A stretch of DNA of 35,635 nucleotides from Kangiellaceae bacterium (GTDB lineage Bacteria; Pseudomonadota; Gammaproteobacteria; Enterobacterales; Kangiellaceae): the NCBI GenBank assembly GCA_026196875.1, contig JAPHTP010000177.1:1-35635 (forward strand). The letters are read 5' to 3'. This document shows, in pieces, positions 323-30,955 of the stretch (position 1 is its first letter; each line of letters begins with the position of its first letter). The notes beneath the pieces were generated by a model. That model was not told the origin of the DNA. It worked only from the letters and a program-made list of their open reading frames with translations, and searched no databases. The position numbers and the translations under genes are program-made.

Positions 323-419
323 GTTCTTTCTCCTGTAAATTGGTCATCTAAATTGGTTTACGCGAGAAAGAGTTGCTTGGATCAGTTAATTTAAAAAAAG
401 AAAAAAACTCACATATAAA

Positions 420-445
420 TGATCTGGTTACAGATGCCCAACGTA
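420..445 (+). promoter_or_regulatory. Candidate ECF-sigma promoter of the lipid-modification operon
   Basis: TGATCT at 420-425 is followed by 16 bases and CGTA at 442-445. This layout matches, as I recall it, the promoters of RpoE-ChrR (ECF11-type) sigma factors, which drive the same lipid gene module in other proteobacteria. Transcription would begin near 452-456, just upstream of the first gene. The match is by eye; the sigma factor itself is not encoded beside it. Confidence 0.5.
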
Positions 446-455
446 GAATCAATTA

Positions 456-1085
456 ATGACGAAACTTTTGACAGGTACAGCTTTGGAAAAGTTATTGTTG
501 AGCGCGATTCTAGCTCTTTTATTATCTAGTTGCTCTGTGAATGGAAACAACTATTCAGAAAATTCGCCTAAGTTTGTTTTTACCGAATTTTTCGATGGTT
601 CTCTATGTGCTTGGGGGACAGTTAAAAATGACAACTCAGAACTATTGCGCAAGTTTATTGCAAAGATTGATGCATACCAAAGAAACGGAGTTACCTACTT
701 GGACGAAGTTTTTATGTTTAATGACGGAGAAAAACAACTAAGGCGCTGGGAGTTTACTCTCGAAGACGGTCTATTTAGCGGAGTCGCCAATGACGTAGTC
801 GGAAGCTCTCAGGGAAAAGTGTACGGTGATAGCTTGCACCTGGAATATGTTATGGCGATTGCTAACGATGATACTGAATGGCATATCAACATGGATGATT
901 GGCTGCATTTAATAGATGAAAATACATTAATGGGAACCACTCAGATGAGCAAGTTTGGATTTAACCTTGGTAGAGTTGATATTGTTATACGCAGACAGAA
1001 GGCCTCTTTGAACGAATGTGAAAACTTTGACCGAGTTTATGTGCGCACGACTATGCATAGTGCGACTGAGAACTCGAGCAATTGA
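456..1085 (+). CDS. DUF3833 family lipoprotein
   Basis: This is a lipocalin-like DUF3833 protein of 209 residues and the first gene of the lipid operon. The N-terminus is a lipoprotein signal ending in LLSSC (Cys26). The mature part carries the family pattern: FFDGSLCAWG near residue 45, RRWEF, SGVANDVVG, the YVMAIANDDTEWHINMDDWL block, and the MSKFGFNLGRVDIVIRR ending. DUF3833 genes regularly accompany DUF2878, DUF1365 and CFA-synthase-like genes; the role is unknown but probably lipid binding at the envelope. The start is uncertain. ATG 456 has no ribosome binding site and lies at the predicted transcription start. The in-frame TTG at 483 has AGGT at 473-476, correct spacing, and would give a 17-residue lipoprotein signal. 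Confidence 0.85.
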   Translation: MTKLLTGTALEKLLLSAILALLLSSCSVNGNNYSENSPKFVFTEFFDGSLCAWGTVKNDNSELLRKFIAKIDAYQRNGVTYLDEVFMFNDGEKQLRRWEFTLEDGLFSGVANDVVGSSQGKVYGDSLHLEYVMAIANDDTEWHINMDDWLHLIDENTLMGTTQMSKFGFNLGRVDIVIRRQKASLNECENFDRVYVRTTMHSATENSSN

Positions 1086-1118
1086 TAACTCGAGCGACCA
1101 ATAATTCGAAGGATGATT

Positions 1119-2030
1119 ATGAGTAGTTTAAAACAGATTGCCGCCTGGTTTGATTCTACCGCTGTGAGAACCGAAAAGTCAGACCATATTTCATGGACTA
1201 GAGTCGTTCCCTTTATTATGATGCATTTGGCTGTCGTAGGCGTGTTTTGGGTCGGTTTTAGCTGGTTCGCATTCTGGGTATGTATATTTTTATACTTTGT
1301 ACGTATGTTCGCTATTACCGGGTTTTATCATCGGTACTTTTCTCACAAGAACTTTAAGACTTCACGCTTTCTTCAATTTGTCTTTGCGTTTGTAGGCGCT
1401 ACATCGGCCCAAAGAGGGCCGTTGTGGTGGGCTTCACATCACAGATTTCACCATGCAAAATCTGATACAAGCGAGGATCCTCACTCACCTCGCCAAAAAG
1501 GGTTCATGTGGAGTCACGCTCTGTGGTTTTTGTCAGATAAGAATTTTGCGACCAATGAAAGACGCATCAAAGACTTCACAAAGTTTCCTGAATTAAAGTG
1601 GCTAGATCGGTTTGATGTCGTCGCGCCCGCAATTTTAGCAGTTGTGCTGTTTGGAGTAGGTGAGTACTTAACAGCTTACTATCCTGGATTGGAGACAAGC
1701 GGCTGGCAGTTGGTCATATGGGGATTTTTCATATCAACCATTTTACTCTACCACGCTACCTACACGATTAATTCTCTAGCGCACCGGTTTGGCAGTCGCC
1801 GCTTTGAAACAAAAGATGACAGCAGAAATAATCTGATGCTCGCTCTATTAACAATGGGCGAAGGCTGGCACAACAATCATCACTATTATTCCGGTACTGC
1901 CAGACAAGGTTTTGTATGGTATGAGATTGACCTAACTTTCTATATTCTAAAATTGATGAGTTATTGTGGGCTGGTATGGGACCTAAAACCGATCCCCGAC
2001 AAAATAAAAACTCAACTGCACAAGGCTTAA
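1119..2030 (+). CDS. Membrane fatty acid desaturase (delta-9 type)
   Basis: This is an integral membrane di-iron desaturase that would introduce a cis double bond into acyl chains. Counted from the upstream ATG at 1113, the three histidine boxes are HRYFSH (73-78), HHRFHH (109-114) and HNNHH (253-257). NSLAHRFG near residue 220 is also typical of the acyl-CoA/acyl-lipid delta-9 group. Two hydrophobic hairpins flank the first box and the 165-215 region. I chose ATG 1119 because GAAGG (1108-1112) is 6 bases upstream; it touches the ATG at 1113. The gene is 33 bases after the DUF3833 gene and 2 bases before the next. Such a desaturase is not a usual member of this cluster; here it may supply the unsaturated substrate for the downstream methyltransferase. 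Confidence 0.9.
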   Translation: MSSLKQIAAWFDSTAVRTEKSDHISWTRVVPFIMMHLAVVGVFWVGFSWFAFWVCIFLYFVRMFAITGFYHRYFSHKNFKTSRFLQFVFAFVGATSAQRGPLWWASHHRFHHAKSDTSEDPHSPRQKGFMWSHALWFLSDKNFATNERRIKDFTKFPELKWLDRFDVVAPAILAVVLFGVGEYLTAYYPGLETSGWQLVIWGFFISTILLYHATYTINSLAHRFGSRRFETKDDSRNNLMLALLTMGEGWHNNHHYYSGTARQGFVWYEIDLTFYILKLMSYCGLVWDLKPIPDKIKTQLHKA

Positions 2031-2032
2031 TT

Positions 2033-2449
2033 ATGACAGTAGAAAAATTTAAGCATACTTTTAAAGAGATGGGTGCTCACAATATTGACATCATTGAATC
2101 TCTCTATGGAGATAAAGTTATCTTTCTCGACCCTTTTCACAAAGTCGTCGGAATTGATGCATTGAAAGAATATTTTGAGCGACTCTACAAAAACGTCAAT
2201 CAAATAAGTTTTGAGTTTGGTGAACATATCCAAGAAGGCAATAACATCTCCATTCAATGGATAATGTATTTAGAGCATCCTAAACTCAATGGCGGTGAGC
2301 CGGTAAGAGTTGCCGGCGTTTCTTTGTTAAAAGTCAATCCCATAGGCCAAGTTATATTCCATAGAGATTATTTTGATGGCGGTTCTATGCTGTATGAGCA
2401 GGTCCCGGTGATAGGTTTTCTAGTAAAGTGGTTAAAAAAGCGGCTTTAA
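2033..2449 (+). CDS. NTF2/SnoaL-like protein
   Basis: This is a 138-residue protein with the small cone-shaped NTF2-like fold signature: an N-terminal helix, DPFHKVVGIDALKEYFERLY (about 32-51), then strands including IQWIMYLEH, VRVAGVSLLKV and the conserved HRDYFDGGSMLYEQVPVIGFLVKWLKKRL end. The HRDYFD...YE..P..G pattern is that of the NTF2-family member found in ChrR-type lipid clusters. The start at ATG 2033 has AAGG at 2022-2025 and lies only 2 bases after the desaturase stop. A longer frame reaches back into the desaturase but has no support. Its function is unknown; it could bind or isomerise a lipid intermediate. Confidence 0.8.
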   Translation: MTVEKFKHTFKEMGAHNIDIIESLYGDKVIFLDPFHKVVGIDALKEYFERLYKNVNQISFEFGEHIQEGNNISIQWIMYLEHPKLNGGEPVRVAGVSLLKVNPIGQVIFHRDYFDGGSMLYEQVPVIGFLVKWLKKRL

Positions 2450-2483
2450 ATAGCGCTGTATTTTAAGACAATGGTTTTGCTGT

Positions 2484-3248
2484 ATGAGTAAGTACGATTT
2501 TGAGAATAAGATAGTTTGGATAACCGGCGCGTCAAGTGGCTTGGGGTTTGCTTTAGCTGAAGAGATGGTAGCGACTTGTGAACATCTTTTTGTTACCGCT
2601 AGAAACCAAGACAAATTAAGGCGATTATTTGGTGATTATTCGAATGTCACAATCCTTGAAGGGGACATAACCGATGTTGAAGTGAATCGCTCTATTGCAG
2701 ACCAAATTGATTCGCAATTCGGTCGTCTAGACTGTGTTATTTTTAATGCCGGTAATGCTGAATATATTGATATATGGAATTTTAATTATCAACCATTTGA
2801 GAGAATGATGAATACAAATTTCATATCTATGGTGAAAGGTATCGAGGTCGCTCTACCTTTACTAAGAAAATCATGCTCACCATATTTAGTGGGAATGAGT
2901 AGTAGTGTAGCCTGGCAAGGGTTACCGCAAGGTCAGGCTTATTCTGCCAGCAAAGCGGCAATTCGTAATTTATTTCAAGGTTTGAGAATTGAATTGGTGC
3001 AAGAAAATATCGATGTGAGTTGGATTTGTCCTGGCTTTGTAAAAACGCCTCTCACAGATAAAAACACATTCGATATGCCTTTGATTATCGAACCAGAACA
3101 AGCCGCGCATGAGATTATTCGAGGCTTGGAAAATAAGACGCCGGAAATTCATTTTCCGAAAATGTTTACTCGAATGTTAAAGTTGATTTCGATTTTACCA
3201 ACAAGGTTAAGTGGTTGGCTGTTAAAAGGAACGGTACCGACAAGATGA
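2484..3248 (+). CDS. Short-chain dehydrogenase/reductase
   Basis: This is a 254-residue classical SDR, an NAD(P)-dependent oxidoreductase. The cofactor motif TGASSGLG is at 14-21, NAG at 88-90, the structural MNTN near 109-112, the catalytic serine in GMSSSVAW (139-141), YSASK with Tyr153 and Lys157, and CPGFVKT after 192. The C-terminal segment is basic and hydrophobic and may touch the membrane. The stop overlaps the next start (ATGA), indicating translational coupling to the flavoprotein. SDRs occupy this position in ChrR-regulated clusters, where the substrate is thought to be a modified acyl chain; the exact reaction is not established. The ribosome binding site is weak. Confidence 0.9.
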   Translation: MSKYDFENKIVWITGASSGLGFALAEEMVATCEHLFVTARNQDKLRRLFGDYSNVTILEGDITDVEVNRSIADQIDSQFGRLDCVIFNAGNAEYIDIWNFNYQPFERMMNTNFISMVKGIEVALPLLRKSCSPYLVGMSSSVAWQGLPQGQAYSASKAAIRNLFQGLRIELVQENIDVSWICPGFVKTPLTDKNTFDMPLIIEPEQAAHEIIRGLENKTPEIHFPKMFTRMLKLISILPTRLSGWLLKGTVPTR

Positions 3249-4564
3249 AAATTGCAATTATTGGAACAGGCATTGCTGGTAATTTCGCGGCTTATCATTT
3301 AAATAAAAAACACGATATTAAGGTGTTTGAGGCCAATGATTATGTAGGTGGTCACACTCATACTCATGAAATAGAGCTCGAAGGTGAGACACATAATATT
3401 GATACGGGGTTTATCGTATTCAACAAGCGAACTTATCCCAATTTTCTTAATTTGCTCAATGAACTCAAGGTCGATTATCAACCAAGTCAGATGAGTTTCA
3501 GTGTGCAATGCCAGAAAACAGGGCTTGAATATAACGGAACCAACTTAAATAGCTTGTTTGCTCAAAGACGCAACCTTTTCAGGCCGAGTTTTTACCGAAT
3601 GATAAAGGATATCTTGAGATTCAATGAAGAGTCTTTGGAGCTTCTACTGCAAGATAGCACAGATATTTCACTTGGCGATTATCTAGCTTCCAATAATTAT
3701 TCTGAACAATTTATAAACCACTATATTATCCCTATGGGGGCCGCAATTTGGTCGACTGACCATAATAGTATGTTCAATTTTCCTGCACGGTTCTTTGTCA
3801 AATTCTTCCATAACCATGGTATGTTAAGTGTTGACAACAGGCCGCAATGGCACGTAATTAAACAAGGTTCTAAACAATATGTAGAAGCACTTGTTAGCGA
3901 ACATAAGCACCTTATTCGAACAAATTGTAGAGTTGACGAAATAATTCGAGATTCAGAAAAAGTTACCATTAAATCGAATGGGCAAGAAGAGATATTCGAT
4001 TACGTGTTTATCGCTACTCACAGCGATCAAGCCTTGAAAATGCTTCGACAGCCTTCGCAACTTGAATCAGAAGTTCTCGGTTCAATCCCTTACACTTACA
4101 ATCAAGCAATACTACATACAGACGCAGAAGTTCTACCAAAGAAAAAACTTGCCTGGGCGGCATGGAACTACCACCTGATGAGAGAAGAAAGCGAGCAAGT
4201 GGCGCTAACTTATAATATGAATATATTGCAGTCATTAAAAAGTAAAAATACTTTTTGTGTGTCTTTAAACTACAGTGATCACATAGACGAATCTAAAATT
4301 ATCAAAACGATTGATTACACTCATCCGTTTTTTACCCAGGCTGGAGTAGATGCTCAAATGCGCCATAGTGAAATCAATGGTGATAATAGAACTTTTTACT
4401 GCGGAGCTTATTGGCGCTATGGATTCCATGAAGACGGTGTAGTTTCGAGTTTAAGAGCACTCAGTGATTTTAACAGGGTATTAAAAGAACAATCCGCTGA
4501 AATAATTGATATCAACGAGCTAGGTAATGAAAAGCAAGATTTACTTTGGTCACATACAGCATAG
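3245..4564 (+). CDS. FAD-dependent amine-oxidase-like oxidoreductase (UfaD-like)
   Basis: This is a 439-residue flavoprotein. It begins with a Rossmann dinucleotide motif (G7, G9, G12, in IIGTGIAG), then an acidic strand end (VFEANDYVGGHT) and DTGFIVFN, which is the NAD/FAD-binding amine oxidase pattern found in the NAD(P)-binding_8/amino_oxidase group. Near the C-terminus, FYCGAYWRYGFHEDGVVSSL is the usual second FAD-contact block. The start at 3245 overlaps the SDR stop by four bases; an upstream in-frame ATG exists but would run further into the SDR gene. In Rhodobacter a flavoprotein of this family (UfaD) desaturates a methylated acyl chain during furan fatty acid synthesis. By analogy this enzyme probably oxidises a phospholipid acyl chain. 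That role is inferred. Confidence 0.85.
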   Translation: MKIAIIGTGIAGNFAAYHLNKKHDIKVFEANDYVGGHTHTHEIELEGETHNIDTGFIVFNKRTYPNFLNLLNELKVDYQPSQMSFSVQCQKTGLEYNGTNLNSLFAQRRNLFRPSFYRMIKDILRFNEESLELLLQDSTDISLGDYLASNNYSEQFINHYIIPMGAAIWSTDHNSMFNFPARFFVKFFHNHGMLSVDNRPQWHVIKQGSKQYVEALVSEHKHLIRTNCRVDEIIRDSEKVTIKSNGQEEIFDYVFIATHSDQALKMLRQPSQLESEVLGSIPYTYNQAILHTDAEVLPKKKLAWAAWNYHLMREESEQVALTYNMNILQSLKSKNTFCVSLNYSDHIDESKIIKTIDYTHPFFTQAGVDAQMRHSEINGDNRTFYCGAYWRYGFHEDGVVSSLRALSDFNRVLKEQSAEIIDINELGNEKQDLLWSHTA

Positions 4565-5330
4565 GCGATTTAAGCCTAAACCACATTCTTTCAAGTATCG
4601 TATATGTATGTTCTATATCGATTTGGATGAGTTGCCAAATTTGTTTGAACATTACTGGATGTGGAGCCTCGATAAAAATAATTTAGCGGGCTTTAGATCT
4701 AAAGATTACTTGCATCAAAATGGTAGCGTGAAAGCAGGGGTTAAAAGCGCAATAGAACAGAAGTTTGGTGTGCTCCATCAGGGGCCGATTAGGATGCTGA
4801 CTCACCTTCGTTACTTCGGGCATTGCTTTAATCCGGTAACTTTCTATTATTGTTTTAACGAGCAAGGCACTCAGGTAGATTTTTTACTCGCTCAAATAAA
4901 CAATACACCATGGGATGAACGATTCACCTATATTTTCGATAATCGCCAGGGGGAGCTAGAAAATAACGGTTCCAACTCTATCCGTATGAATTTCGCGAAG
5001 GAATTTCATGTTTCACCTTTTTTACCAATGAATATGCAATGTGATTGGCGGTTTTTGATCCCAAATGACAATTTAACCGTATATATGAAAAACAGCATCG
5101 TGGAAGATAGAGTAAGTCAACCTGAAAAGGTATTTGATGCCAGTCTTGTCCTTGAAGCTCAAGATCTCAATTCGAGAAGCTTGGCAAGGGTGCTGATGGT
5201 GTACCCCTTGATGACAATGAAGGTTGCAACTGGAATTTACTGGCAAGCGCTTAAATTATGGTTTAAGAAAATACCATTCTTCGAACATCCCGGTGCTAAC
5301 AAAACTAGCCAAACAACAGAAAGCACTTAA
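4527..5330 (+). CDS. DUF1365 domain protein
   Basis: This is a 267-residue DUF1365 protein. The family pattern is clear: IYFGHIQHRRFKPKPHSFKYR at the N-terminus, YIDLDELP, the NLAGFRSKDYL segment and the strongly conserved RMLTHLRYFGHCFNPVTFYYCF block near residue 90-110. It overlaps the flavoprotein gene by 38 bases, so the two are coupled. GAGCTAGG just upstream of ATG 4527 is a poorly spaced ribosome binding site. DUF1365 proteins almost always neighbour the amine-oxidase-like and CFA-like genes, implying a shared pathway. The biochemical role is unknown to me; a plasma-membrane-associated C-terminus (about 225-245, PLMTMKVATGIYWQALKLWF) is possible. Confidence 0.9.
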   Translation: MKSKIYFGHIQHRRFKPKPHSFKYRICMFYIDLDELPNLFEHYWMWSLDKNNLAGFRSKDYLHQNGSVKAGVKSAIEQKFGVLHQGPIRMLTHLRYFGHCFNPVTFYYCFNEQGTQVDFLLAQINNTPWDERFTYIFDNRQGELENNGSNSIRMNFAKEFHVSPFLPMNMQCDWRFLIPNDNLTVYMKNSIVEDRVSQPEKVFDASLVLEAQDLNSRSLARVLMVYPLMTMKVATGIYWQALKLWFKKIPFFEHPGANKTSQTTEST

Positions 5331-5384
5331 CTATTTAAGTTTTGGTTCATTGTTTGAATAACAACTACATATGAGAATCCAATT

Positions 5385-6668
5385 ATGAGTGATGGAATTT
5401 CGGTCAGAGCTTATGCCGATAATTTAAAAAACAAGAGAAGTACTTCTCGCTTCTGCCAGCTACTAAAGAAACTCATGTTTAATCAGTTGCAAACGCTCCA
5501 GTTTGGTGAGCTAAGTATTCGTGAAGCCGCAAAAACCTATAGGTTTGAATCAAATCAATTGGCTTGTCTACAAGCCGATATAGAAGTACTTGATGAGCAA
5601 TTCTACCCGTATATTATTTTCGGCGGAGGTGTTGGTGCAGGAGAAGCCTATATGCAAGGCTTTTGGCGCAGTAACGACCTAACCAAAGTGATCCAGCTAT
5701 TCGCCTTAAATCAATCTGTGATGGACTCTGTGGAGAGCGGGTTTGCAAGAATATCTAGTCCAATCAAAAAAGTTGCTCATTGGCTCAATAAAAATACCCA
5801 TTCCGGCAGCAAGAAGAACATTGTTGCCCATTACGATTTGGGAAATGAATTTTTTAAATTGTTTCTAGATCCAACTATGATGTATTCCTCGGGAATTTTT
5901 CATTCCGAGCAGGACTCTATGCAGCAAGCATCAATCAATAAACTGGATAGAATCTGCAACAGGCTTAGGTTAACCAGTCAAGATAGGGTCGTTGAAATAG
6001 GTACCGGTTGGGGAGGGTTTGCCATCCACGCTGCGAAAAGTTATGGATGTCACGTTACCACCACAACTATCTCTGAAGAACAGCATAAATATGCGCAGCA
6101 GAGAATAATTGAAGAAGGCCTTCAAGATAAAATAACACTGCTTAAACGGGATTATAGAAAGCTAGAAGGCAAGTATGACAAACTCGTTTCGATAGAAATG
6201 ATTGAAGCGGTAGGCCATCATTATTTTAATCAGTTTTTTAAAAAGTGTTCAAGTTTATTAAAGCCTGACGGAGAAATGCTGCTTCAAGCGATCACTATTA
6301 CCGATCAACGTTTTGATCAAGCAAAGTCTCAAGTTGACTTTATTAAACGCTATATTTTTCCTGGTAGTTGCATACCTTCTGTTGATTCTATGAGCGATAG
6401 TATCCGTCGAGCAACTGATATGAGAGTGCTTAATTTGGAAGATATTGGTGCCCATTATGCTCGTACTTTAAAGAAATGGCATGAAGCCTTTATGTCTAGA
6501 CTCGGCGAAGTGCGTCAGCAAGGATTTAGTGATGCGTTTATTCGAATGTGGGAGTTTTATCTCTGCTACTGCGAAGGTGGTTTTAGAGAAAGAGTAATTA
6601 GTGATGTGCAATTGCATCTTGTTAAACCAATTGCTCGAGTACCTGAAACTTTACCTGGACTGGAGTAA
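5385..6668 (+). CDS. CFA-synthase-like SAM-dependent fatty acyl methyltransferase
   Basis: This is a 427-residue member of the cyclopropane-fatty-acyl-phospholipid synthase family. It has HYDLGNEFFKLFLDPTMMYSS (149-169), the SAM-binding motif VVEIGTGWGG (202-211), SIEMIEAVGHHYF (269-281), KRYIFPGS (321-328) and the C-terminal EFYLCYCEGGFRER. Compared with E. coli Cfa, Glu (E274) and Tyr (Y358) of the bicarbonate site are kept, but the Cys of QYSC is Ser169 and the His of the LLHTI segment is Gln301. It may therefore methylate or methylenate the double bond rather than close a cyclopropane ring, as UfaM-type enzymes do. It lies 54 bases after DUF1365 and overlaps the reading frame of the next gene. 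Confidence 0.9.
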   Translation: MSDGISVRAYADNLKNKRSTSRFCQLLKKLMFNQLQTLQFGELSIREAAKTYRFESNQLACLQADIEVLDEQFYPYIIFGGGVGAGEAYMQGFWRSNDLTKVIQLFALNQSVMDSVESGFARISSPIKKVAHWLNKNTHSGSKKNIVAHYDLGNEFFKLFLDPTMMYSSGIFHSEQDSMQQASINKLDRICNRLRLTSQDRVVEIGTGWGGFAIHAAKSYGCHVTTTTISEEQHKYAQQRIIEEGLQDKITLLKRDYRKLEGKYDKLVSIEMIEAVGHHYFNQFFKKCSSLLKPDGEMLLQAITITDQRFDQAKSQVDFIKRYIFPGSCIPSVDSMSDSIRRATDMRVLNLEDIGAHYARTLKKWHEAFMSRLGEVRQQGFSDAFIRMWEFYLCYCEGGFRERVISDVQLHLVKPIARVPETLPGLE

Positions 6669-7194
6669 CGTTATTTCTACCTGGTTCACGATTGCCTATT
6701 TTCAAATCGGCTGGTTGCTATTAGTCATTGGTAGCCAATCGGACTATTACATACTTGGGATTGTATGGACTAGCATTTTTATCGCTTCTTACGCCAAGAT
6801 TTCTGCACCATGCAAACATTATTATTCGAGTGTACTGCTAATCGTTTTTGTTGGTTTGTTAACGGACTTCCTTCTGAGCAACTTTAACTTAATTAATTTT
6901 GGTAGTAGCAGCCAGTTTATACCTGCTTGGTTGATTTGTTTATGGATTCTATTTGCGCTCACTTTCAGAGATAGTTATCGCTGGATGCGCTCGATTAATC
7001 CGGTAACAGTTTTTCTTATCGGCGGAGTTTTTGGGCCGCTTGCTTATAAAGGGGCTTCTCTTCTGAGTGACGTTGAGGTATTACAACCAACCATTTTTTA
7101 TCCGGTCAGTGCGTTGTTCTGGGGGAGCCTTTTTACATTTTTGGCCAAAAACAATCGAATAAACCAATTAGTCTTCTCAAAGAAGAGTATTTGA
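6604..7194 (+). CDS. DUF2878 integral membrane protein
   Basis: This is a small polytopic membrane protein with about five or six hydrophobic segments and the DUF2878 hallmarks: FQIGWLLLV near the start, then DFLLSNFNLINFG, PAWLICLWILFALTF and a GGVFGPLAYKGASLL loop. The conserved part begins near 6679, inside or just after the end of the CFA-like gene. ATG 6604 has GAGAAAGAG upstream and overlaps the CFA-like frame by 65 bases. Starts further in (TTG 6631, CTG 6655) would make a protein of more usual length, so the start is uncertain. It is the last gene of the operon. The role is unknown; it probably assists export or handling of the modified lipid. Confidence 0.8.
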   Translation: MCNCILLNQLLEYLKLYLDWSNVISTWFTIAYFQIGWLLLVIGSQSDYYILGIVWTSIFIASYAKISAPCKHYYSSVLLIVFVGLLTDFLLSNFNLINFGSSSQFIPAWLICLWILFALTFRDSYRWMRSINPVTVFLIGGVFGPLAYKGASLLSDVEVLQPTIFYPVSALFWGSLFTFLAKNNRINQLVFSKKSI

Positions 7195-7574: not shown

Positions 7575-7781
7575 ATGAGTAAAGGTACAGTAAAGTGGTT
7601 CAACCCAGATAAAGGTTTTGGTTTTATTACTCCAGAGGATGGCGGCAAAGACCTTTTTGTTCACCATTCAGAAATACAAAGTGGTGGCGGTTTTGCGACG
7701 CTAAATGACGGTCAGCAAGTAGAATTTGAAATAGGACAAGGCCAAAAGGGCCCTTGTGCTAATAAAGTCGTTCCACTCTAG
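7575..7781 (+). CDS. Cold-shock family RNA chaperone
   Basis: This is a 68-residue single cold-shock domain protein that binds single-stranded RNA/DNA and melts RNA structure. RNP-1 is KGFGFI (13-18 region) and RNP-2 is LFVHHS (27-32). [13 protein letters not shown] and the terminal NKVVPL are typical. It is slightly unusual in the [24 protein letters not shown] stretch, which resembles CspA-like paralogues outside the main CspA/C/E set. AAAGAGA upstream is the ribosome binding site, but the same ten bases (ATGAGTAAAG) occur twice, at 7562 and 7575. This creates an out-of-frame start 13 bases upstream that encodes only six codons and ends within the gene. The long AT-rich leader fits post-transcriptional control. 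Confidence 0.95.
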
Positions 7782-20186: not shown

Positions 20187-20783
20187 ATGCATACCCTAGT
20201 TTTAAACGCAAGTTATCAATCAGCCGAAGCCCGTGATAGAGGAGAGATGGCTCTGCAAGTGCCTATCGAGCAATTTCTTATTCAAGTAGAAAAGAAGGCC
20301 TACCGCATGGCAGAAATTGCTACGCAAAGTCCTTCCGATGCGTTGGATATTGTTCAGGACTCGATGATTAAACTAGTTGAAAAATACGGCCATAAACCTT
20401 CGCAAGAATGGAAGCCACTTTTTTATCGAATTTTGCAATCTAGAATCACGGATCATTTTCGAAAGCAAACATTAAAGAATAAGATCTTCTTTTGGAAATC
20501 AAGCGGCGGCGAAGATGAAAATAATGGGTTTGATATTTTAACAGAAGGAACCGATTTTATTTCACCCGATCGAGAGTTGGAAGGACAGCAACAAGTAAAT
20601 ACTGTTTTATCCGCTTTAAAAAAACTACCTACGAGGCAGCAGCAGTGTTTTATGCTACGTAGTTGGGAAGGACTAAGTGTCGCTGACACTGCGATAGCGA
20701 TGGGGTGTTCGCAAGGGAGCGTCAAAACGCATTATTCGAGAGCAAAAGAAGCTCTTAGGAAGGCGGTTGAAGTTGAACAGTAG
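20187..20783 (+). CDS. ECF-like RNA polymerase sigma factor
   Basis: This is a 198-residue sigma-70 family protein. Region 2 is ALDIVQDSMIKLVEKYGHKPSQEWKPLFYRILQSRITDHFRK (about 52-93). Region 4 is VLSALKKLPTRQQQCFMLRSWEGLSVADTAIAMGCSQGSVKTHYSRAKEALRK (about 141-193), with the helix-turn-helix at its end; there is no region 3. It would direct RNA polymerase to a small regulon. ATG 20187 has AAGGA nine bases upstream. An internal ATG at 20247, directly after GAGGAGAG, would give MALQVPIEQF and may be the conserved start. It opens a four-gene operon whose second gene looks like its membrane-bound regulator. In this group, sigma-DUF3619-DUF3106 neighbours recur in Gammaproteobacteria. Confidence 0.9.
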   Translation: MHTLVLNASYQSAEARDRGEMALQVPIEQFLIQVEKKAYRMAEIATQSPSDALDIVQDSMIKLVEKYGHKPSQEWKPLFYRILQSRITDHFRKQTLKNKIFFWKSSGGEDENNGFDILTEGTDFISPDRELEGQQQVNTVLSALKKLPTRQQQCFMLRSWEGLSVADTAIAMGCSQGSVKTHYSRAKEALRKAVEVEQ

Positions 20784-20840
20784 TTTACTGGGGTAGTTGA
20801 AATATCTGAAATACAGCGTGGTATCGCGCAGGTGGTAAAC

Positions 20841-21188
20841 ATGAAAGACAAAGATGATGAATTTAATCGAGAACAAGATGAACTTGAGCTACGCGCAAAC
20901 TCAGCTTTGGAATCAAGTGTCGAAAATTTAGATCCCGCGGTTCGTCGAAAGTTAAATCAAGCGAGAATAAAGGCGCTTGAATCGAAAGCTTCCGGAGTCA
21001 GGGTGTTCAAACTTGTTGGTGCTGTTAGCTTTGTTTTGGCGATTGGTTTTGTTTCGCTTTTTAATATGGAACAAGAATCTATTAATTCGACTCCTTTTGC
21101 TGAAGTTCTTGAAGAAGACTTGGAAATGCTTGAAGATTTGGAGTTTGTATATTGGATGGCCGAGCAAGAGTTGGAAGTTACTAACTAA
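20841..21188 (+). CDS. DUF3619-like single-pass membrane protein, putative anti-sigma factor
   Basis: This is a 115-residue protein with a cytoplasmic, charged N-terminal half containing ENLDPAVRRKLNQARIKALES. One membrane segment follows (FKLVGAVSFVLAIGFVSLF, about 55-73), then an acidic periplasmic tail, EDLEMLEDLEFVYWMAEQELE. That pattern resembles DUF3619. The layout, small helical cytoplasmic domain plus one transmembrane helix immediately after a sigma gene, suggests it holds the sigma factor at the membrane. This is inference: no classical ZAS domain (HxxxCxxC) is present. ATG 20841 follows AGGTGG at five bases; a GTG nine bases earlier is less likely. The gene starts 57 bases after the sigma gene. 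Confidence 0.75.
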   Translation: MKDKDDEFNREQDELELRANSALESSVENLDPAVRRKLNQARIKALESKASGVRVFKLVGAVSFVLAIGFVSLFNMEQESINSTPFAEVLEEDLEMLEDLEFVYWMAEQELEVTN

Positions 21189-21233
21189 TTACTTGTTTAA
21201 ACAAGAAGGTATTTTATAACGAGAATATATTAA

Positions 21234-21578
21234 GTGAATACTAGTCAGCATTTAAAAATCCTTACACTAATTACTGGAATGAGCATTTCCCAGTGTGTAG
21301 TAGGGGGCACAAACAATGAAAAAGACAATGACAAAGTTGCAAAGCTGGACTCGGCGTTCTTAGAGTATTTAGCGTTGACTAGTTTTGATGGAGATGAAAT
21401 AAGTGATCCTTTGGATATGTTGGATGTTGACGAGGAAAGCTTGAATGCAAATTTTGACCAACTGGATAAGCAGCAAGGTCAAAATGAACAGGCAGAACAA
21501 AAGAAAGTAATATCAAAGTCGAATTCTGGAGATGATGCTTCAGATCTGGATTTGCAAAAACAGAAGGAGGAAAAATAA
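21234..21578 (+). CDS. Exported acidic protein of the sigma operon, unknown
   Basis: This is a 114-residue product starting at GTG 21234. A weak signal sequence (HLKILTLITGMSISQCVVGG) is followed by LDSAFLEYLALTSFDGDEISDPLDMLD, which looks like a short conserved helix motif, and then a very polar Gln/Glu/Lys/Asp-rich tail that is probably disordered. I know of no named family. The stop codon overlaps the next gene's ATG by one base (TAATG), so the two are coupled. GAGA about 12 bases upstream is a poor ribosome binding site, so the start is uncertain. It probably bridges the membrane-bound regulator and the DUF3106 protein in the periplasm, judged only by position. Confidence 0.65.
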   Translation: MNTSQHLKILTLITGMSISQCVVGGTNNEKDNDKVAKLDSAFLEYLALTSFDGDEISDPLDMLDVDEESLNANFDQLDKQQGQNEQAEQKKVISKSNSGDDASDLDLQKQKEEK

Positions 21579-22066
21579 TGAAGCGATTATTTTTTCTGGT
21601 ATTTATATTAATAGTCCCCATTTTATTTTTACCGCTTTCATTAAAGGCGGAAGTAAATGATTGGGAGTCATTATCACCTGAAGTTCGTCAGGTATTGCAG
21701 CAGTTTGAAGGCGACTGGCAATCTTTACCTGAACAGCGGAAGCAGAATTTAGTTAAAGGAGCTAACCGCTGGTTAAGCATGAATGATGAGCAAAAACAAG
21801 TCGCCAGTCAGCGTTTTAAAAAGTGGCAGTCGTTATCTCCAGAACAGCGAGCAAATTTAAAGAAGCGATTGCATAGATTTCGTTCACTTCCGCTAGATAC
21901 CCAAAAACGTTTAAGGGATACATTTAGGCAATTTAAAAATTTAACACCTGATCAGCGTAAAAAGCTACGCCAGAAATTTCGAAATCTGTCGCCTGAAAAA
22001 CGCCAACAACTGCTAAAACGTATGCAGCAAAGGTTGAAGAAAAAGAAACCGAGAAGACGCCAATAG
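21578..22066 (+). CDS. DUF3106 periplasmic repeat protein
   Basis: This is a 162-residue exported protein. Residues 1-24 (KRLFFLVFILIVPILFLPLSLKA) are a signal peptide. The rest is DUF3106, built here of about seven 18-residue repeats with the pattern W/F-x-x-L-S-P-E-Q-R-x-x-L. Examples are WESLSPEVRQVL, WQSLSPEQRANL, FRSLPLDTQKRL, FKNLTPDQRKKL and NLSPEKRQQL. The protein is strongly basic, ending in KKKKPRRRQ. The LSPEQR units recall the LTxxQ motif of CpxP/Spy-type periplasmic chaperones. AAGGAGG seven bases upstream is the best ribosome binding site in the operon. As last gene of the sigma operon it may be a stress sensor or an effector; the function of DUF3106 is not established. Confidence 0.88.
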   Translation: MKRLFFLVFILIVPILFLPLSLKAEVNDWESLSPEVRQVLQQFEGDWQSLPEQRKQNLVKGANRWLSMNDEQKQVASQRFKKWQSLSPEQRANLKKRLHRFRSLPLDTQKRLRDTFRQFKNLTPDQRKKLRQKFRNLSPEKRQQLLKRMQQRLKKKKPRRRQ

Positions 22067-29959: not shown

Positions 29960-30955
29960 CTAATTAGTAGGCCCAGCTTTTTTTTTCAATTGTGAGAGTT
30001 TGAATAGAGAGAGTAATTTCATGGTCGCAGCCTGAATAGGCTGCCAGTATATTCCCCAAACGGTATCGTGCTCTTTAAAATCTTTTCCTACTCCAAATCG
30101 AATTCGTTTGACCTGGTTAGCCGTAATCAGGGTTCCCGCAATTCTATCCCATATGGCCAAGGCCGAGCCTAGGTTTTTGTCAAAGTGGGCAGGATTATCA
30201 CTGTGATGAATTTGATGCTGAGCAGGGCTTACAAGCCAGCGTTCTACCTTTTCACCCCAACTCAGCCAAACGTGCGAATGGCGCAAATTTGATCCCATAA
30301 AATTAAATGCAAAGATAAAAATGTTTGCGCCCGCAAATTCTATAACTGAAAGTGTAGGACCAAATAAGAAATAGGCGATACCAATTGAAGTACCTTGAGA
30401 AAGCGCCAAGCGACAAGCAAATAAGTAGTTTTCAATTGGGTGGGATCGATAAATAGTGATTGGGGTTAACACTTTTGCCGAATGGTGAACTTTATGGATT
30501 TCCCACAAAAACGGGACCTTGTGAAGAATTAAGTGGAGTAAGAATCGAGACAGGTCGTCAAGTACAAAAAGGAGTAGGGTAAAAGTGGTCATAATCACCC
30601 ATTTCGATTGACTGAGCGGTGCGATCATACCAAATGTAGATTCAAAGAAATTGGCTACTGAAAGACCAATTGGCGCAATTGCTAGGATCGCAGGCGCGAG
30701 TAAAATACCACGGATGATCTTGTTCACAACGAATAATACATAATCGTTTTTTGCAGATTTAGAAAGCCAGATTTTCTTGGGAAACAGGAATTGGATGAAA
30801 CGCGCAAAAGAAGGTTTGTTACTCGCTTTATAAAAGACAATCAGAGCTAGTAGTAGTGAGCCGACCAAGTACCAAATATAGATTCGCTGACTGGGATCTA
30901 TCAAGTAACGACTTAAGTCGTACAAACTTGAATTTAATGAATCTAATAACTGCAT
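29960..30955 (-). CDS. Sterol desaturase/fatty acid hydroxylase family protein
   Basis: This is a 331-residue membrane di-iron oxygenase-like protein. The histidine clusters are HLILH (141-145), HKVHH (154-158) and HQIHH (257-261). RSHPIEN and LRHSHVW supply further metal ligands (H182, H236, H238). About four membrane helices lie before and between them. Family members hydroxylate or desaturate sterols, carotenoids or acyl chains; the substrate here is unknown. It is the last gene of a minus-strand cluster with a TonB receptor and imelysin, 114 bases downstream of the receptor gene. Its leader holds a motif shared with the imelysin gene and a large imperfect hairpin, so it may have its own promoter or attenuator. 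Confidence 0.88.
   Translation of the reverse strand: MQLLDSLNSSLYDLSRYLIDPSQRIYIWYLVGSLLLALIVFYKASNKPSFARFIQFLFPKKIWLSKSAKNDYVLFVVNKIIRGILLAPAILAIAPIGLSVANFFESTFGMIAPLSQSKWVIMTTFTLLLFVLDDLSRFLLHLILHKVPFLWEIHKVHHSAKVLTPITIYRSHPIENYLFACRLALSQGTSIGIAYFLFGPTLSVIEFAGANIFIFAFNFMGSNLRHSHVWLSWGEKVERWLVSPAQHQIHHSDNPAHFDKNLGSALAIWDRIAGTLITANQVKRIRFGVGKDFKEHDTVWGIYWQPIQAATMKLLSLFKLSQLKKKAGPTN

Follow-up and report, generated by a model that had tools for sequence, protein, structure and literature searches.

So far, furan fatty acid synthesis has been elucidated with cis-vaccenate as the starting chain and in only two alphaproteobacteria; the functions of the ufa genes were established in these species, Rhodobacter sphaeroides and Rhodopseudomonas palustris (PMC7380195). 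UfaM methylates the cis-vaccenoyl phospholipid to a methylated trans-olefin, UfaD, a relative of carotenoid desaturases annotated with an NAD-FAD-binding domain, converts this product to the conjugated diene, and UfaO, which belongs to the DUF1365 family, closes the furan by inserting oxygen that derives from O2 (PMC7380195). The R. palustris genes ufaM, ufaO and ufaD are adjacent (RPA2569-2571), the R. sphaeroides pathway is linked to RpoE-ChrR, and single deletions of RSP1087, 1088 and 1089 in R. sphaeroides produced no change (PMC7380195). A Halomonas strain carries the three ufa genes consecutively and its UfaM yields 11-methyloctadec-12-enoate in Escherichia coli (PMC12089945). The available part of a further study proposes that furan fatty acids relay singlet-oxygen damage to ChrR (PMC6852236). 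Here, a stretch of 35,635 nucleotides from a Kangiellaceae bacterium (assembly GCA_026196875.1, contig JAPHTP010000177.1), hereafter the window, was analysed. The window is the entire contig C178 of a 6.28-Mb, 188-contig genome assembly, and its G+C content was 40.6%. It carries an eight-gene operon that is fairly likely to be a ufa operon of the RpoE-ChrR (ECF11) singlet-oxygen regulon, of a lineage with a dedicated membrane desaturase. The gene identities, gene order, promoter motifs, contig adjacency and co-conservation behind this reading were observed here, and the genes suggest that the host runs the furan pathway. The pathway is already known; its desaturase-coupled form is widespread in the class, and a mainly open-access literature search gave no description of a desaturase-coupled ufa operon among the matches listed.

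The window shares with the R. sphaeroides and R. palustris systems a CMAS-family methylase, a flavin adenine dinucleotide (FAD) desaturase and a DUF1365 protein (PMC7380195), resembles R. palustris in having their genes adjacent and R. sphaeroides in its predicted RpoE-ChrR link, and adds a membrane desaturase with three histidine boxes, a DUF3833 gene and an NTF2-like gene. Aeromonas salmonicida (available part of PMC10012899) and Salinivibrio kushneri (locus L120) have the same order of NTF2-like, short-chain dehydrogenase/reductase (SDR), FAD protein, DUF1365, cyclopropane fatty acid synthase (CFA)-like and DUF2878 genes, but no desaturase is found among the six A. salmonicida genes named in that part of the source or in the S. 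kushneri stretch. S. kushneri also has ybgA, photolyase and DUF3833 genes, the last downstream and not upstream as in the window. The RpoE2-ChrR regulon of Shewanella oneidensis is similar in its TGATCC-16-CGTA promoters (TGATCC-16-CGTAAT or similar, including that of the photolyase-cfa operon) and in its cfa, ybgA and photolyase members; cfa and photolyase share one operon there (available part of PMC4336711), whereas ybgA and photolyase lie beyond rpoE-chrR in the window's host. Finally, plasmid p1AsACE of Acinetobacter schindleri has the order lipocalin, acyl-CoA desaturase, FAD oxidoreductase, DUF1365, CFA-like, DUF1295 and methyltransferase. Its desaturase stands directly before the FAD oxidoreductase, DUF1365 and CFA-like genes with lipocalin and photolyase genes near, but the cluster also contains a DUF1295 gene, another methyltransferase and a two-component system, lacks an SDR and has the NTF2-like gene at the far end.

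Eight same-strand open reading frames (ORFs) occupy positions 456-7194 (+) of the window, and all eight products exceeded the Pfam gathering score of the assigned family (Table 1). The intergenic gaps were, in order, +30, +2, +34, -4, -38, +54 and -68 bp, the last assuming the longest DUF2878 start. The original prediction of eight tightly packed, partly overlapping genes was borne out, and ORF order and sequence also confirmed a desaturase with three histidine boxes between the DUF3833 and NTF2-like genes. Six further loci showed the eight-gene order, five from members of the window's family (L014-L018) and one from a genome outside it (L074), so that the order is not due to chance. The genes for UfaD, UfaO and the CMAS protein are consecutive, so that UfaO, UfaD and a CMAS-family methylase are encoded together. 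Four products had been regarded as uncharacterised accessories, which holds for DUF3833, DUF2878 and the NTF2-like protein but not for DUF1365, the UfaO family; the SDR joins the first three as an accessory with no assigned role.

Table 1. Features of the divergent locus at the left end of the window (positions of the window).
Feature	Position	Strand	Basis and remarks
DUF4397 gene, N-terminal 107 codons, cut by contig start	1..322	-	PF14344 in both pieces; remainder ends contig C16
ECF11-type promoter motif TGATCC-16-CGTAAA, toward DUF4397-rpoE-chrR	357..384	-	Pattern match; definition from available part of PMC4336711
ECF11-type promoter motif TGATCT-16-CGTAGA, toward operon	420..447	+	Pattern match; activity predicted
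DUF3833 protein	456..1085	+	PF12915, 160.7 bits; N-terminus lipoprotein-like by reading; alternative start TTG 483
Membrane fatty acid desaturase, DesC/SCD type	1116..2030	+	PF00487, 77.8 bits; ATG 1113 also possible
NTF2/SnoaL-like protein	2033..2449	+	PF12680 (SnoaL_2), 49.9 bits
SDR	2484..3248	+	PF00106 (adh_short), 132.9 bits
UfaD-like FAD desaturase	3245..4564	+	PF01593 (Amino_oxidase), 88 bits; PF13450 (NAD_binding_8), 50.8 bits; gene order with DUF1365 and CMAS
UfaO-like DUF1365 protein, predicted furan-forming oxygenase	4527..5330	+	PF07103, 257.1 bits
UfaM-like acyl methylase dependent on S-adenosylmethionine (SAM), CMAS family	5385..6668	+	PF02353, 277.4 bits
DUF2878 membrane protein	6601..7194	+	PF11086, 98.5 bits; longest frame, start uncertain

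The histidine boxes of the desaturase read HRYFSH, HHRFHH and GEGWHNNHH, and these histidines were present in at least 95% of 68 homologues. Cyanobacterial acyl-CoA desaturase/desC1 and full-length Acinetobacter proteins matched it at 54-58% identity, and its only solved sequence relatives were SCD1-type chains (4ymk/4zyo, approximately 105 bits). Histidine boxes, identity and the SCD1 match thus liken it to DesC/SCD-type delta-9 desaturases, from which it differs in being embedded in a ufa operon; its own regiochemistry is putative.

Distribution was determined in a sample of 61 genomes (the window's own and 60 relatives) and in a class-wide sample of 369 genomes drawn from the class. Among the 61 genomes, ufaO was found in 43 and a clear desaturase orthologue (at least 361 bits, next best 141) in 24, and in all 24 carriers the orthologue lay on the ufaO contig within a few kb. 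Within the window's family (genera g1 to g6), both genes were present in the window's own genome and four of its six relatives in g1, the single genome of g2, one of six in g3 and all 17 in g5. Neither gene was found in the remaining g1 genomes (G001 and G003) and five g3 genomes, several of these assemblies being in hundreds of contigs; since close relatives lack both genes, the operon appears to be gained and lost as a whole among members of the genus and the family. ufaO without a desaturase orthologue was found in g4 (five genomes), g6 (one genome) and 13 genomes from other families of the order. The class sample showed ufaO in 112 genomes and 45 desaturase places in 44 genomes (E ≤1e-45), and by coordinates both lay within 10 kb in 29 of the 112 genomes, the window's own included. 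Sixteen of the 45 desaturase places were not beside ufaO, two of them (L108 and L114) being beside other ufa genes. A Chroococcidiopsis desaturase had no ufa genes within 6 kb. Overall, the comparison of neighbourhoods across Gammaproteobacteria that had been suggested with the original prediction showed that the desaturase-ufa arrangement recurs in many relatives. An insertion at this locus only was rejected because the desaturase recurs beside ufaO in the relatives and in the class sample; the gene described as added recurs as a member of one ufa operon lineage.

Neighbourhoods of ufaO loci were collected from 40 of the 42 ufaO-bearing relatives first and from the other two later, and nearly all of their gene labels are best matches to window or C16 proteins or to profiles built from those. 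The tree and the residue counts used 72 of 89 neighbourhoods, all three core proteins above score cut-offs being required. The class-sample neighbourhoods (L074-L117) were chosen for having the desaturase, so that the tree set over-represents desaturase loci by design and its 51:21 split is not a frequency. Desaturase presence required three changes on the tree of UfaD, UfaO and the CMAS protein, compared with a mean of 18.6 after shuffling (0/500 as low). The smallest supported sets containing the window (4, 7 and 11 rows) were all desaturase-bearing, and FastTree placed an 18-row group of desaturase-free order-mates apart from the window's set with weak support (0.54). The tree program warned of long branches and odd composition in several rows, which makes the deep joins unsure. 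Of the 51 loci that have the desaturase, 35 carry it directly before ufaD; in 22 of the 35 the gap is -4 bp if the gene is taken to begin where the domain begins (as was confirmed for L026). The desaturase was elsewhere upstream in 12 loci (eight with NTF2-like and SDR genes between, the window included, two with an SDR gene and two with a gap of 133-134 bp) and downstream in four. In addition, desaturase distances followed those of UfaD (r 0.87, 0/999 permutations), the yardstick UfaO-UfaD giving r 0.86.

The operon had also been described as having no resident sigma/anti-sigma pair. On the sequence evidence this apparent lack is a contig-edge artefact, because the window opens inside a DUF4397 gene whose remainder lies at the end of contig C16 with rpoE and chrR downstream of it. 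The ChrR cupin family had one match in the genome, on C16 (TIGR02451, 158.9 bits, cut-off 124.5); this chrR overlaps an extracytoplasmic function (ECF) sigma gene (TIGR02937, 88 bits), and after the pair a DUF4397 gene runs off the right end of the contig. Alignment with the L015 and L017 homologues showed that the window piece ends at residues 130 and 122, respectively, and that the C16 piece starts at residues 133 and 125, leaving exactly two residues between them (Tyr-Thr in the homologues). The base left over in the window piece, a T, fits a Tyr codon and the orientations of the two pieces are compatible; an exact overlap of the C16 and C178 end sequences was sought and none was found. L015 and L017 showed the full order of chrR, sigma and DUF4397, followed divergently by DUF3833, desaturase, NTF2, SDR, ufaD, ufaO, CMAS and DUF2878, and L014, L016, L018 and L074 the same arrangement without a DUF4397 match. 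The sigma-chrR pair was thus divergent and directly upstream of the operon in 6/6 loci with the eight-gene order. From the protein alignment and these relatives, rpoE-chrR is predicted to lie beside the operon across the contig gap, and the seemingly orphan operon would form one arm of a divergent rpoE-chrR/ufa locus that the assembly has cut in two. Beyond rpoE-chrR, C16 (L004:8584-11603) carries genes for a lipocalin (Blc-like), DUF523-DUF1722 (YbgA-like) and a photolyase with an ECF11-type motif upstream, which are likely a second arm of the same regulon.

The promoter motif was adopted from the Shewanella table after the window sequence had already been seen. Genome-wide, the loose pattern TGATC-N17-CGTA gave 34 matches compared with 26 for the reversed pattern, and the pattern alone was rejected as proof of regulation. 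The argument for regulation is made because the motif pair falls in one gap and in the loci of relatives: two of the 34 matches share one 133-bp gap (approximately 0.0007 expected), the divergent pair was kept in L014 and L017, and one of the two motifs was kept in L015, L016 and L018. The -10 element of the operon motif ends 8 bp before ATG 456, and the message may therefore be leaderless or begin at TTG 483.

The CMAS protein is the sole clear CMAS in the genome, the second match reaching 26.8 bits over a partial length. In an alignment with four solved CFA/CMAS enzymes, their YSC and a His correspond to YSS (Ser169) and Gln301 of the window protein. The corresponding residues of E. coli Cfa bind bicarbonate. 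Among the 72 cluster homologues, the Cys column held Ser in 55, Ala in 10 and Cys in 7, the His column held Gln in 72/72 and a nearby His was Ala in 72/72. The protein also scored below the NCBIfam equivalog cut-offs (PRK11705 280.2/400, CfaB 227.1/650 and CPFASynBruc 278.3/600 bits). It is probably not a cyclopropane synthase because the active-site Cys and His are replaced by Ser and Gln; the use of these residues to separate UfaM from Cfa is suggested here from the cluster proteins and the solved CFA enzymes, and kinship to the characterised Ufa proteins is argued from family, gene order and active-site residues. Of the self-contained route to a methylated, cyclopropane or furan fatty acid that had been predicted, the methylated and furan products agree with the UfaM, UfaD and UfaO homologues and the published pathway, whereas the cyclopropane product does not agree with the active-site residues. 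The CFA-like enzyme would be the methylating step, but the flavoprotein assigned to oxidation is itself a desaturase (UfaD).

For UfaO, residues kept in at least 95% of the 72 rows included His12, Arg14, Asn126, Thr127, Tyr135, Lys158, His161 and Ser163, which are candidates for a cofactor site. UfaO produced no match with solved structures at E up to 1, and a structure model from three sequences had a mean predicted local distance difference test score (pLDDT) of 56.8. A scan of a contig collection with the DUF1365 protein showed two distant loci. At L026:11712-14150, and similarly in many of L074-L117, the operon extends through DUF2878 and DUF1295 to a second CMAS-family methyltransferase of diverged sequence, which may catalyse the FufM step to dimethyl furans; no clear second CMAS was found in the window's own genome.

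In the proposed mechanism, RpoE encoded by the divergent rpoE-chrR genes, approximately 1.6 kb away over the contig break, would be freed by singlet oxygen or organic peroxides and would fire the promoter at 420-447, as is known elsewhere. The DesC/SCD-type desaturase would then put a cis double bond in a phospholipid acyl chain, and it is plausible, as the simplest reading, that this supplies the double bond for UfaM. The later steps would follow those known elsewhere: the UfaM-like methylase would add a methyl group from SAM and shift the bond, the FAD-dependent UfaD would form a second, conjugated bond, and UfaO would insert O2-derived oxygen and close the furan ring. By analogy with cis-vaccenate, a delta-9 bond would be methylated at C9, and the ring would span C8-C11. 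The recurrent gammaproteobacterial ufa operons with their own desaturase predict that the pathway acts on chains that first need desaturation, which, if true, widens the expected range of furan lipids.

Several observations weigh against this mechanism. No such desaturase lay within 10 kb of ufaO in 83 of the 112 ufaO genomes of the class sample, and a desaturase-free Marinimicrobia locus (L002) stood next to the window's set in FastTree. The window's own genome encodes four PF00487 desaturases above the cut-off and a FabA (272.6 bits, cut-off 238.15), FabA being above the cut-off in 55/61 genomes. The idea that the host lacks another double-bond source and hence needs the desaturase was rejected by FabA; with FabA and the four desaturases, the operon enzyme need not be the sole source and the double-bond step is not forced. 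On the side of regulation, the promoter pattern alone is not specific genome-wide, and a third match lies inside ufaO at 5056, also in L015 and L016. No sigma or chrR match was found in the 17 neighbourhoods fetched from g5, the genus of Kangiella koreensis, so that ChrR control is a trait of the window's operon form and does not extend to every desaturase-type ufa operon. At L026, ORFs reading as a histidine kinase and a response regulator (labels by reading) follow the operon, and a two-component pair is annotated alongside the A. schindleri cluster. Finally, RSP1089 of R. sphaeroides, which adjoins ufaO, is dispensable for the furan lipid (PMC7380195); if it is CFA-like, as its position alone would have it, a cluster CMAS need not be UfaM.

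Some of these observations would suit a desaturase that shares the regulon and not the pathway, namely a membrane-fluidity or repair enzyme that replaces unsaturated chains oxidised or lost in photo-oxidative stress. The enzyme does resemble general DesC/SCD desaturases, most ufaO genomes of the class sample (83/112) do without one nearby, FabA is able to supply double bonds, and regulon operons often mix functions, such as the photolyase on C16. This explanation is nevertheless unlikely, as among the relatives the orthologue occurred only beside ufaO (24/24), often overlaps ufaD by 4 bp and has diverged in parallel with UfaD. The same ties to the ufa genes would hold if the desaturase acted late, placing an extra double bond on the methylated or furan chain to give unsaturated furan fatty acids. 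The relatives of the enzyme are delta-9 enzymes acting on saturated chains, which makes a late action improbable. Unsaturated furan fatty acids do exist, as stated in the available part of PMC10558370. An operon for cyclopropane fatty acids, in which the CMAS protein would be an ordinary Cfa, is very improbable: CFA synthases were its best solved-structure matches, but the Cys and His are replaced by Ser169 and Gln301, with Gln in 72/72 and Ser or Ala in 65/72 cluster relatives. E. coli has a Cfa of its own. Cyclic chains were seen too on ufaM overexpression in E. coli (PMC12089945), but the published product of UfaM is the methylated trans-olefin (PMC7380195).

Within the preferred reading of a desaturase that feeds the ufa enzymes, the substrate may be branched. 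In the available passage on K. koreensis, iso-15:0 made up 57.6%, iso-17:0 7.2% and iso-17:1w9c 8.6% of the fatty acids, and no straight-chain 18:1 appears in that passage (PMC3035244). The available part of PMC11849500 gives Aliikangiella strains 15-17% iso-15:0, 10-14% summed feature 9 (iso-17:1w9c/10-methyl-16:0) and at most 2.7% summed feature 8 (18:1w7c/w6c). K. koreensis carries desaturase-ufaD-ufaO-CMAS at its locus (L022). Because the named family members seen are rich in iso-lipids and K. koreensis yet carries desaturase-ufa genes, it is tentatively suggested that the operon desaturase unsaturates iso-chains such as iso-17:0 and that the ufa enzymes then yield furan fatty acids that keep the iso branch and differ from 9M5-FuFA in ring position, so that the pathway would not be tied to cis-vaccenate. 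If the window's genus shares the Aliikangiella lipids, iso-chains may be the substrates of its ufa enzymes, and having a dedicated desaturase would be reasonable. Against this, FabA is found in the K. koreensis genome too, and the reported w9 position is not simply that of a delta-9 product.

Other genes of the window lie outside the operon. A small cold-shock-domain gene (PF00313) was found at 7575-7781, approximately 380 bp past the operon. At 20187-22066, another ECF sigma gene, followed by two small ORFs without a Pfam match and a DUF3106 gene, is unrelated to the operon by position. In addition, a FA_hydroxylase family protein (PF04116) at 29960-30955 (-) adjoins an ORF that reads as TonB-receptor-like and an imelysin gene (PF09375).

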